From positions 1 through 64,000 of the forward strand of contig NC_009712.1 in the NCBI RefSeq assembly GCF_000017625.1: DNA of 64,000 bases, read 5' to 3'. The notes beneath the pieces were generated by a model, which worked only from the letters and a program-made list of their open reading frames with translations, was not told the origin of the DNA and did no database searches. This DNA is from Methanoregula boonei 6A8. Lineage in GTDB: Archaea; Halobacteriota; Methanomicrobia; Methanomicrobiales; Methanospirillaceae. This document shows positions 39,752 to 43,509 of this stretch, piece by piece (position 1 is the first letter of the stretch; each line of letters opens with the position of its first letter). The position numbers and the translations under genes are program-made.

Positions 39752-41386
39752 TCAGAGGAATATAAGCGGGTGGAGCTCGGACTCCTGCCCGCAGCCGGAT
39801 TTTATCCGCTGTATGATTGCCAGTTCGTTCCTGAGCCCGAGCTCGCGGCTGAACCGCTCGGCCTGTTCGAGCTTGTCAGCTGTGGACGCGTACCTGTCCG
39901 GGAAGGAGTCCGGCGCTGCATGGAAGAGGAGCGCTTCTGAGAGGAATGTCTGGACAATGCCCCAGTGCGAGGAGATCTGGCAATAGATCTCAAACGCATT
40001 CTGGAATTTTGTGTCAAGGTCCCGGGGGAACGGTTTTTTGCACTTTTGGAATGCCACGCGTGCACATTCGCATTCCCCGATAAGGCAGTGGGCAAACCAG
40101 TTGACACTCCGCACCCTCTGGGCCACGGTCTTTGCCTCATCGTATGCTGCCGCCGCTTGTGCGCACGCTTTTTCTGCCTCCGCCGGGCCGGAAAGGAACG
40201 CCCGGGCCCGGAACAGCTCGGCCCGTTCGGGCAGGAGCATGACCAGGCCCCGCATCATCCCGTTGCGATAGATCTCTTCTGCCGTGTCGTAGTACCCGGA
40301 GGCCTCGTCAGACTTCCCGGAAAGGCGGCATGCCGTCCCGGTCCTCCGCAGGATATCGGCCCGCAGCTCGGCGACATCCGGGTTGGTCCTGGCCGGGTCC
40401 GCTTTTCCGCAGAGCTCGAGCGCCTGGACAAACCGGGCCGGTGAGGACGTGGGTGCATAATCCCCGCAGAGCAGCTCGACCTCGCCGGCGCCAAGGAGCC
40501 CTTTTGCCCTGAGGAGGGGATCGGCATCCCGGATCCGGAGAAGTTCAAGATATGCCTCTTTTGCCCCGGTAAGGTCATTGAGGTGGAGCAGGATACGGCC
40601 TTTGGTGATCCGGGATTCCGACAAAAGGGCCGGAAGAGCCAGGCCCTGCTGTTCTGCCAGGGCCACACCCCGGACAAATGCCTCGTATGCCTCCTGGTAC
40701 TGGTTGAGTATCGTGAAAAAATCCGCGTACCACAGAAAAAACCGGGCCTCCCGCTCTTCGACCGGCCCGGTGGCTACAAACCGCAGGAAGTTCCGGGCCA
40801 CCATGCTGTCAATGTCGCTCTCCGGGATCTTTCCTGCATAGATGTCATCGTAGATCCCTTCGAGGTAGTCGCCGATCGCATTGCTGTTCCCGAGGATCTT
40901 CTGGAATGCCGAGTACGCGGCTTCGATCTGGTGGCTCCGCTCTGTCCGTTCCCCTACCGCGGAGATAAATCTCGGGTGGGGAAGGGCGGCGTTCTCCCCA
41001 TCACCCATACGGCTGAGTTCGTGGAGCAGAACAGTCAGGTCAAGAAGGCCCTCGTGGGGCTTGTCCCGGCACTTGATAAGGATGTACTTGTTGAAGATCC
41101 ACGGGCGGCGGATGTAATAGTAGGGATTAGTCCGCTCGCTTCCCGCCCGGGCAAGGATCCCCCGCCCGATCAGGAGTTCCAGCCTTTTCCTGAGGGCCGA
41201 TTCGGTGATGGCCCGGTCTTTGTGGCCCTCCTGTTCCCCCGCGGCCTCCGGTAAATTTACCCGCTCAAGGATCTGCCGGAGGTGCAGGGGACCATCGTAC
41301 AGGGTGAGGAGGGTCTCTTTTGCAGCCCCCGAGAGATCAGGCTCTTCCTCTACCATCCTCCGGAATGTTGCCTGATCGGGATACAT
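39752..41386 (-). CDS. Putative HTH plus TPR-like repeat protein
   Basis: 544 aa, unnamed. Residues about 20-110 fit a winged-helix domain (KETLLTLYDGPLHLRQILERV... LRKRLELLIGRGILAR), and from about 180 to the end there are many helix pairs with TPR-like spacing (EAYEAFVRGVALAEQQG, GAKEAYLELLRIRDADP, EAEKACAQAAAAYDEAK). No NTPase domain is visible, unlike MalT/STAND proteins. Perhaps a transcription factor sensing through protein partners. It stands alone on the minus strand. Confidence 0.7.
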   Translation of the reverse strand: MYPDQATFRRMVEEEPDLSGAAKETLLTLYDGPLHLRQILERVNLPEAAGEQEGHKDRAITESALRKRLELLIGRGILARAGSERTNPYYYIRRPWIFNKYILIKCRDKPHEGLLDLTVLLHELSRMGDGENAALPHPRFISAVGERTERSHQIEAAYSAFQKILGNSNAIGDYLEGIYDDIYAGKIPESDIDSMVARNFLRFVATGPVEEREARFFLWYADFFTILNQYQEAYEAFVRGVALAEQQGLALPALLSESRITKGRILLHLNDLTGAKEAYLELLRIRDADPLLRAKGLLGAGEVELLCGDYAPTSSPARFVQALELCGKADPARTNPDVAELRADILRRTGTACRLSGKSDEASGYYDTAEEIYRNGMMRGLVMLLPERAELFRARAFLSGPAEAEKACAQAAAAYDEAKTVAQRVRSVNWFAHCLIGECECARVAFQKCKKPFPRDLDTKFQNAFEIYCQISSHWGIVQTFLSEALLFHAAPDSFPDRYASTADKLEQAERFSRELGLRNELAIIQRIKSGCGQESELHPLIFL

Positions 41387-41499
41387 AGCACTAGTACCTG
41401 ATTACGCAGAGGTTGTATAAAGCGCCATCCCGACCCTGGAAGTCCTGAATTTATAAGGGCGGACGGAAAAGATCCCGCATTTTCTTTCCAAACCACCCT

Positions 41500-41556
41500 C
41501 GTTTTTATATATTCACCTGCAAAATGCCTCCTTACTCAATCGCAGAGGTAAAGAAG
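41500..41556 (+). promoter_or_regulatory. Promoter and leader of STAS copy 1 (duplicated)
   Basis: TTTTTATATATTCACCTG at about 41509-41526 and an ATG-containing leader. A matching ATTTTATATTCACCGG element sits at about 42058-42075 before STAS copy 2, both preceded by C/T-rich tracts with a TTCCAA.. segment. This shows the copied unit includes its TATA box. Confidence 0.5.
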
Positions 41557-41910
41557 ATGGAGATCTCTCAAACAGTATCACAGGGAATCATCATCGTAAC
41601 TCCCGCAGGATGGCTCGACACCGCCTCATCAGAGGAGTTTTTGAAGTACTGCACAGCCCTGCCGAAAGCCCCGGTTATTCTCGATCTTTCGGGTCTCAGC
41701 TACGTGAGCAGTATTGGTCTCCGGGCATTGCTCCAGTTCGGGAAGGAACAAAGACAACGGGGAGCAGATGTGGTTATTGCAGGAAGCAAAGGATTTGTCC
41801 ATTCAGTGCTCCGGATGAGCGGATTTGATCAGCTCTTCCTGATGTACTCTTCCGCGGCCGATGCAATTCAGGCGATTGCAGGGCCGGCAACCAAAGTGCC
41901 CGATGCATGA
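41557..41910 (+). CDS. STAS domain protein, copy 1
   Basis: 117 aa from ATG 41557 with GAGGT upstream. One STAS domain (anti-sigma factor antagonist fold): MEISQTVSQGIIIVTPAGWLD, then LDLSGLSYVSSIGLRALLQF. Ser52 matches the phosphorylated serine of SpoIIAA by position relative to the conserved glycine. Archaea lack sigma factors, so it probably works with a histidine kinase-like switch kinase elsewhere. Tandem with copy 2. Confidence 0.9.
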   Translation: MEISQTVSQGIIIVTPAGWLDTASSEEFLKYCTALPKAPVILDLSGLSYVSSIGLRALLQFGKEQRQRGADVVIAGSKGFVHSVLRMSGFDQLFLMYSSAADAIQAIAGPATKVPDA

Positions 41911-42109
41911 CCGTGGAGGGTGACCTCTTCCTCCACTTCAACTCTTTTGGCGACAACACCCCTATTCACGCCTTTTGGCCCGTCATCCCAATGTTGTTTT
42001 CCGGGACATTTTTAGACAACTGGAAAAGATCTCCCTTTTTTTTTCCAACTTCCCCGCCATTTTATATTCACCGGTAAGATGTTCCCTCGCAATAGTTCAG
42101 GTGATAGAA

Positions 42110-42478
42110 ATGGAGATCCACCACGAAATATCCCGGGGAATCGTCATCGTAACGTTCTCCGGGTGGCTCGATACAACCTCGGCCGGGAAATTTTTGGAGT
42201 ACTGTGTACTCCTGCCGCCGGCTACCCCGATCATTTTTGATCTTTCGAGACTCTCCTTTCTGAGCAGGACCGGCCTTCGTGCGCTGCTCCGGTTCAGGAA
42301 TATGAGGGCTTCGACGGGATCTGTTGTGGTTATTGCGGGTAGCAGGGGTTTTGTCGATACTGCGCTGAAAATGAACCGGTTTAACCGGCTCTTTCCGATG
42401 TATCTCTCTGTTGCCGATGCAATCCCGGCTATTGCAACGGCTGCGGCCCCGATTCCCCGTGTGTGGGGAGGTGCATGA
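42110..42478 (+). CDS. STAS domain protein, copy 2
   Basis: 122 aa from ATG 42110, upstream GGTGAT. Parallel to copy 1 (MEIHHEISRGIVIVTFSGWLD, DLSRLSFLSRTGLRALLRF), but the phosphoserine position is Arg53 here. It may be a non-phosphorylatable variant. The 3' end overlaps the acetyltransferase start by ATGA. Copies 1 and 2 also share their promoter and leader pattern, showing a duplication of the whole unit. Confidence 0.88.
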   Translation: MEIHHEISRGIVIVTFSGWLDTTSAGKFLEYCVLLPPATPIIFDLSRLSFLSRTGLRALLRFRNMRASTGSVVVIAGSRGFVDTALKMNRFNRLFPMYLSVADAIPAIATAAAPIPRVWGGA

Positions 42479-43509
42479 CCATGGATCATGACTTTCACGT
42501 CTCCGCCGGTGCCATTGGCGACAACACCCACATTCATCCCCTGGAGGCCGATGAGGCACAGGGGGTTTCCCAGCTGATGCACGAAGCATACCGCGACACG
42601 TATCCTGAAAAATTCCTCTACAGTCCGTCAGATCTCCTGAACAAGACGGAAAACGGGGAACTGTTTTCCGCTGTGGCAACCGACCCGGAAGGGCGGGTGA
42701 TCGGACATGGGACACTGCGTGCTTATCCCGGTTTCCCGGAGATCGGGCTCCTTGGATCCCTTGTTGTCACACCGGCCTGCCGCAACCGCCATCTGGGGAG
42801 AGCCCTGGCGCGGTACCTGACAGCCTACGGTGAGAAGAGAGGTTTTTTTGCACTCACGGCAGGTGTCTTCCTGTCAAGCCCTCCCTCCCGGAAAACGTTT
42901 GGAGGACTGGGCTATACCCCGAGTGCCATTATACTTGGGGCATATCCTCAGGAGATATCGCTTGTGGGAATCGCAGAGCGCCTCAGCCAGCGTGAGAGCC
43001 TGGGTTTCTGCACCAAGCTGCGCTCTTCCGTGCAGTACGGGCCGCAGTATCTCCCGGAACGCTATCGGGAAATGGTAGATGAGCTCTGCCGGGGTCTTGG
43101 GATCCGGTATATCCCGGGTGCAGAGGAGGACTCCGGCCCGGGTCCAACGATCCTCGAGGAAGGCTTCAGTGATGAGAGCCGGGTCGGCCGGATCCTTGTA
43201 CGGGGCAGCGGGTACAATTTCCGCCAGGCTGTTGCACAGACCCTCTGGAATCTCCGGGCCCGGGGTGCGCAGAGTATTTGGATGCATCTTGATGCAGGTG
43301 ACCCCCGCACTCCTGCTGCAGCTATGGCAGCAGAAGATTCCGGCTTTGTCTTCTCCGGGATTCTTCCCGGGAAAAAAGGCCTGATCCTTCTCCACGAGTT
43401 CTCGCGGGAGAAGATCAGCTGCGATCAGATCCATCTGTCCGACCCGGCGGGATCGCGCCTCCTTGCCTACATAGGCTCGCAGAGAAAACCGGATCTCCAG
43501 AAACGCTGA
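42475..43509 (+). CDS. GNAT-family acetyltransferase
   Basis: 344 aa from ATG 42475 (overlaps the STAS stop; GGAGGTGC upstream). N-terminal GNAT domain to about residue 160: ACRNRHLGRALARYL is the acetyl-CoA binding motif and LLGSLVVTP the preceding strand. The C-terminal half (about 190-340) looks like a second, weakened GNAT-like domain, with TPAAAMAAEDSGFVFSGILPG. Substrate unknown. Its overlap with STAS copy 2 indicates a shared pathway. Confidence 0.85.
   Translation: MTMDHDFHVSAGAIGDNTHIHPLEADEAQGVSQLMHEAYRDTYPEKFLYSPSDLLNKTENGELFSAVATDPEGRVIGHGTLRAYPGFPEIGLLGSLVVTPACRNRHLGRALARYLTAYGEKRGFFALTAGVFLSSPPSRKTFGGLGYTPSAIILGAYPQEISLVGIAERLSQRESLGFCTKLRSSVQYGPQYLPERYREMVDELCRGLGIRYIPGAEEDSGPGPTILEEGFSDESRVGRILVRGSGYNFRQAVAQTLWNLRARGAQSIWMHLDAGDPRTPAAAMAAEDSGFVFSGILPGKKGLILLHEFSREKISCDQIHLSDPAGSRLLAYIGSQRKPDLQKR

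Follow-up and report, generated by a model that had tools for sequence, protein, structure and literature searches.

The genome of Methanoregula boonei 6A8 consists of one contig of 2,542,943 bp, and the window analyzed here, a stretch of 64,000 nucleotides, covers its bases 1–64000. Two STAS-domain genes, each preceded by a leader with a TATA-like box, were found in front of a gene encoding a two-lobed acetyltransferase of the GNAT family (Table 1). Downstream of GNAT lie a DUF1697 gene and a LEA_2 gene (Pfam). The divergent neighbor P0004 adjoins STAS in all six sister loci described below and also occurs in genomes without a STAS–GNAT pair; it was present in 19 of 108 family genomes, where it often adjoins a methyltransferase gene.

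Table 1. Features of the STAS–GNAT locus (positions within the window)
Feature	Position	Strand	Basis
Divergent neighbor P0004, 544 aa, weak TPR matches only	39752..41386	-	ORF and Pfam
Palindrome-like leader element, copy 1 (GGAAAA..TTTCTTTCC)	41465..41491	.	Leader alignment
TATA-box-like TTTATATA, copy 1	41504..41511	+	Read from sequence, alignment
STAS copy 1 (P0001), 117 aa, Ser52 in phosphosite column	41557..41910	+	Pfam, TIGR00377, PDB alignments
GNAT 5′-end relic behind copy 1; right end of duplicated unit	41907..41975	+	Copy-to-copy alignment
Palindrome-like leader element, copy 2 (GGAAAA..TTTTCCAA)	42022..42048	.	Leader alignment
TATA-box-like TTTTATAT, copy 2	42060..42067	+	Read from sequence, alignment
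STAS copy 2 (P0002), 122 aa, Arg53 in phosphosite column	42110..42478	+	Pfam, alignment
Two-lobed GNAT, 344 aa, ATGA overlap with STAS copy 2	42475..43509	+	Pfam, predicted structure

Both copies matched the Pfam STAS domain (66.2 bits for copy 1 and 46.9 bits for copy 2; cut-off 22.6), and copy 1 alone passed the model of anti-sigma factor antagonists of the SpoIIAA/RsbV type (TIGR00377; 58.3 and 38.1 bits for copies 1 and 2, respectively; cut-off 53.45). In alignments with PDB structures, Ser52 of copy 1 fell into the conserved serine column (e.g., SYVSSIGLR versus SYMDSAGLG of TM1442), which we take to be the phosphoserine site, and copy 2 has Arg53 in this column. The two genes and the residues assigned to them in the original prediction were thereby confirmed, and so was the finding that copy 2 overlaps the acetyltransferase gene (ATGA, 42475–42478). 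The description of copy 2 as lacking the phosphoserine holds for the canonical position only because hydroxyl residues (Ser52 and Thr54) stand on either side of Arg53.

The GNAT protein matched Pfam Acetyltransf_1 (43.4 bits; cut-off 20.7) and was modeled using AlphaFold2 with a pLDDT of 85.9 and a pTM of 0.84. Residues 17–189 form a full GNAT lobe (best Z of 14.9 against PDB GNATs, with an rmsd of 2.1 Å over 158 aligned residues), and its structural neighbors are small-molecule and N-terminal acetyltransferases. The C-lobe alone (pLDDT 89) retrieved mostly GNATs as top Foldseek matches; at a best E of only 1.2e-3 and a TM of ~0.4, the modeled C-lobe appears weakly GNAT-like. At the acetyl-CoA motif of GNATs, presumably Q/R-x-x-G-x-G/A, the protein reads RNRHLG, while five aligned sister proteins read RxxGxG or RxxGxA; the histidine is also found in the kinase-fused relatives at loci L034 and L035.

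Duplication of the STAS gene and divergence of the copies

Homology between the copies was traced from 41465/42022 through the leader, the TATA-like box, and the STAS gene to near 41975/42543. As had been predicted, promoter, leader, and protein are common to both: the leaders match in a stretch of 46 nt (76%) and another of 22 nt (82%), TATA box included, and the two protein sequences agree in 63 of 111 aligned residues. On the right, the homology takes in the first ~23 codons of GNAT. As the repeat reaches into GNAT codons, copy 1 is also trailed by an overlapping ATG, as in copy 2, and by a relic of the first GNAT codons, the frame of which is open to 42077 (56 codons). Given this relic, the duplicated unit comprised the leader, the STAS gene, and the 5′ end of GNAT, and a tandem duplication of that unit accounts for the whole repeat.

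In a tree with seven single-copy STAS proteins (from the six STAS–GNAT sister genomes and G067), copies 1 and 2 were sisters with 99% bootstrap, and the duplication therefore postdates the split from these relatives. A duplicated STAS was seen in this genome only, the relatives being single-copy. Copy 1 and each of the seven single-copy proteins have serine in the phosphosite column, and in this sequence comparison serine is the ancestral state and the arginine of copy 2 is derived.

A palindrome-like element precedes the TATA-like box in both copies and in the leaders of four other genomes (G040, G061, G034, and G048); it was not visible in the leaders of G064, G052, and G067. The element may be an operator. 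A genome-wide search for the strict pattern GGAAAA-N6-14-TTTTCC, which the copy 1 element fails, gave 22 sites versus 3 in a reversed control. When 15 of these sites were inspected, only copy 2, L142, and possibly L131 had a TATA-like sequence no more than 40 nt away on one side. On this account, no regulon is claimed.

At the 35 positions invariant in the seven single-copy STAS proteins, copy 1 differs at 6 and copy 2 at 12, and the changes in copy 2 include the phosphosite and the Ser-Gly of the conserved 'SGFE' stretch. The branch dN/dS of STAS was ~0.22 for the background, 0.25–0.32 for copy 1, and 0.53–0.55 for copy 2. The relaxation of copy 2 relative to the background was not significant (2ΔlnL 3.24, p ~0.07), and ω = 1 was not rejected for this copy (2ΔlnL 0.98).

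The original prediction had cast copy 2 as a working constitutive partner in a two-partner switch, in which copy 1 is phospho-controllable and copy 2 is constitutively active on the same target. Two proteins that share a leader and are otherwise similar, one with Ser52 and the other with Arg53, fit such a pair; however, Arg53 could equally abolish kinase binding, and together with the lost Ser-Gly and the other changed invariant positions it fits a loss of kinase docking just as well. With 12 of 35 invariant positions changed and a dN/dS of 0.55 that differs significantly from neither the background nor 1, a constitutive partner is one option for copy 2 that the data do not favor, and the two-partner switch is improbable. 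A better, if still less than probable, account takes copy 2 to be a decaying duplicate that now only carries translation into the GNAT start through the ATGA overlap, while copy 1 switches alone. The changed invariant positions, the unrejected ω = 1, the TIGR00377 score below the cut-off for copy 2 only, and the occurrence of the overlap (GTGCATGA) in G064 and G052 speak for this account; against it, the 122-codon frame has stayed intact despite ~0.7–0.9 substitutions per codon on the copy 2 branch, and its score against the STAS domain still clears the Pfam cut-off by a wide margin. We consider copy 1 likely to be the switch; copy 2 could be either a variant independent of phosphorylation or a decaying gene whose only service is coupling.

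Sister operons and kinase–GNAT fusions

Relatives of GNAT were searched in 108 family genomes (E ≤ 0.001), 16 of which gave matches. Six same-genus genomes matched over the full length with 42–45% identity, and all six have a single STAS gene directly before GNAT, a divergent P0004, and an ATP-grasp ligase and an MFS transporter behind GNAT. Because the seven STAS–GNAT genomes form one lineage, these six arrangements do not represent six independent events. Two sister ligases that were scanned matched Pfam ATP-grasp families. In comparison with dapdiamide A synthase DdaF and ATP-grasp dipeptide ligases, one sister ligase passed the NCBIfam subfamily model NF005543 (365 bits; cut-off 302) and stayed below the equivalog cut-off of the DdaF model (219 bits; cut-off 840). 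The sister MFS protein resembles drug-efflux families (NCBIfam). By gene order, the ancestral operon is reconstructed as STAS, two-lobed GNAT, ATP-grasp ligase, and MFS exporter.

The ligase query that was positive in 9 of the 108 family genomes found no relative in this genome, and there is no MFS gene at this locus. On this branch, the ω of GNAT was 0.28, and ω = 1 was rejected (2ΔlnL 19.8); GNAT is thus under purifying selection here even without its former ligase and exporter partners. In G067 (L112), STAS is present and no GNAT match was found; its STAS gene is followed by one for a 576-aa protein whose match to B12-binding is weak (18.9 bits, under the cut-off; L112 4821–7300).

Four more distant relatives of GNAT in the family are open frames of ~500 aa. 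The N-terminal part of the three that were scanned is a HATPase_c_2 domain (Pfam 61–83 bits; cut-off 27.4), and the nearest NCBIfam models for one fusion were SpoIIAB and RsbW, both below their cut-offs; in the remaining fusion loci, the HATPase was called using our own HMM. Across the order, the GNAT profile matched 22 of 232 genomes, comprising seven STAS-linked (this one included), twelve kinase-fused, one with a broken fusion (G006), and two with neither. The broken fusion (L056) contains stop codons; the frame of its kinase part is still open. The rule that a HATPase-less GNAT always adjoins STAS was rejected, as GNAT was found without HATPase or STAS within ~1.5 kb in two genomes of another family (G479, L156; G491, L155).

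One scan of bacteria and archaea at large retrieved 25 loci (Deltaproteobacteria, Ignavibacteria, an actinobacterium, Alphaproteobacteria, and others); the scan patterns lay in the GNAT part and so did not select for the kinase domain. The GNATs of these bacteria and of the archaea of the order are homologous to the two-lobed GNAT described here. A fusion protein used as the query matched nothing in a plasmid collection, and a phylum-wide GNAT search beyond the order gave one weak partial match (G277).

The N-box asparagine, which we take to be a kinase motif residue in the fused HATPase domain, was kept in 19 of 29 judgeable fused rows and lost in 10, eight of which are archaea of the order; this count left out L078 (start trimmed) and L035 (same genome as L060). 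Within the order, one group of archaea (L052–L055, L079, and L081–L083) has lost both this asparagine and the G-box stretch, and its fused kinase domain is likely a pseudokinase. Alignment A4 omits the incomplete loci L062, L069, L079, and L084, and the C-lobe alignment A7 also omits L067 and L080.

The flanks (~1.5–6 kb) of 32 fusion-type loci were searched using our own HMMs, which identified STAS at two loci and SpoIIE domains at three (L045, L072, and L075). L075 (Theseobacter) carries in a row a STAS, a lipoprotein-like, and a nitronate monooxygenase gene, a stand-alone HATPase, GNAT, a second STAS, a dCache sensor, a HAMP-SpoIIE protein, and a HATPase. L072 (an actinobacterium) has a STAS gene, a HATPase gene, a dCache-HAMP-SpoIIE protein, and two HATPase-GNAT genes. 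At L060, L061, and L070, an MFS transporter gene starts within ~10 bp of the kinase–GNAT fusion, which parallels the MFS gene at the end of the sister STAS–GNAT operons. A phospholipase-B-like gene (PF04916) adjoins the fusion in two unrelated genomes (L063 2311–3738 and L064 1861–3291).

Candidate partners and a proposed switch

Profile searches of this genome identified seven STAS domains, 22 HATPase_c_2 matches, and SpoIIE domains of 195, 170, and 49 bits. The partner kinase and phosphatase that the original prediction had suggested looking for have candidates in two short stand-alone RsbW-like proteins (96.5 and 81.7 bits) and in the two stronger SpoIIE domains. The genes of these two RsbW-like proteins occupy genome positions 1162016–1162393 and 1002081–1002431. 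No HATPase_c_2 match lies near 41–43 kb, and the nearest is ~400 kb away. The stronger stand-alone kinase sits between two other STAS genes and may therefore have its own partners. A second switch cluster in the genome, reminiscent of a stressosome module, has two STAS, a HATPase, a HATPase-SpoIIE, and a HATPase-PAS gene in a row (L021 3341–9784; genome ~1548840–1555283).

A functional link between STAS and GNAT, as originally proposed, is supported by the pairing in all six GNAT-bearing sister genomes, by the fusion of GNAT relatives to an RsbW-like kinase domain, and by two bacterial loci that combine STAS, kinase, SpoIIE, and GNAT. The fusions and the latter two loci make GNAT a candidate output of archaeal partner switching. 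In the proposed scheme, GNAT would be the output of a switch of the SpoIIAA/SpoIIAB/SpoIIE type. Unphosphorylated STAS would engage an RsbW-like kinase, by which GNAT activity would be altered; the kinase would phosphorylate Ser52, releasing STAS, and a SpoIIE-type phosphatase would reset it. The kinase domain lies within the GNAT polypeptide in other lineages, and here a kinase would act in trans, or STAS might contact GNAT directly. After the leader, STAS, and the GNAT start were duplicated in tandem in this lineage, copy 1 kept the switch residues, and copy 2, which is nearest to GNAT and overlaps it, lost them and is at best a phospho-independent or binding-impaired variant.

Another reading is that STAS does not switch GNAT and instead travels as a passenger, a free anti-anti-sigma-like protein, in an operon for a small molecule (GNAT, ligase, and exporter). 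The operon of the relatives does look metabolic, with its ATP-grasp ligase and efflux-like MFS, and GNAT occurs without STAS in L155 and L156 and STAS without GNAT in G067. However, hitchhiking leaves unexplained that most members of the GNAT family carry a fused RsbW-like kinase domain, and the split HATPase-GNAT-STAS row in L075 also argues against it; we regard this reading as unlikely.

In view of the fusion, operon, and neighborhood links, the best explanation is a switch-controlled acetyltransferase, with the locus as a remodeled remnant of a four-gene operon; we hold it at about even chances, and every interaction, the direction of control, and the enzyme substrate are inferred. Several observations count against the switch model: no kinase adjoins the pair, STAS was found by only two of the 32 fusion loci, L155 and L156 have neither HATPase nor STAS within ~1.5 kb, and G067 has STAS with no GNAT match. 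A wider proposal is that a SpoIIAA/SpoIIAB/SpoIIE-type switch of Methanomicrobiales controls an enzyme, the two-lobed GNAT, and not transcription, that the kinase–GNAT fusion was the original effector, and that Methanoregula swapped the fused kinase for an operon STAS, which in this lineage then became two paralogues unequal in phospho-competence. This proposal is tentative, and we place it a little below even.

Relation to known switches

As in the SpoIIAA/SpoIIAB/SpoIIE and RsbV/RsbW/RsbU switches of Bacillus, the genome contains STAS with the conserved serine, RsbW-like kinases, and SpoIIE phosphatases; unlike in those switches, no kinase lies beside STAS, an acetyltransferase is linked, and a second STAS is without the serine. 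The HATPase_c_2-GNAT fusions of Deltaproteobacteria, actinobacteria, Methanomicrobiales, and others contain a homologous two-lobed GNAT, whereas the locus here has no kinase domain and has STAS genes before GNAT. SypA, BtrV, and RbaV are described as non-canonical STAS-only regulators with targets other than a known sigma factor (PMC8256260); they differ from the locus here in being bacterial, in having mostly unknown targets, and in having no GNAT link. Among CC-licensed PMC papers, none was found on a kinase–GNAT fusion or a STAS–GNAT pair.

Archaea are known to be without sigma factors, as is also stated by Anderson et al. (2009; PMC2686161). Their account of SpoII-type proteins, in the order to which M. 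boonei belongs, notes homologues of anti-sigma factors, anti-anti-sigma factors, and serine phosphatases in Methanomicrobiales, the targets of which could not be identified. What such proteins act on in this order, which has no sigma factors, has been in question since at least 2009, and the GNAT family is a candidate target for the switches noted there. The duplicated locus additionally offers two naturally occurring STAS proteins, one of which has the phosphosite and one of which lacks it. If GNAT is the target, the switch would control metabolism directly. The gene arrangements in relatives suggest that GNAT, rather than a sigma factor, may be what such archaeal switches control.
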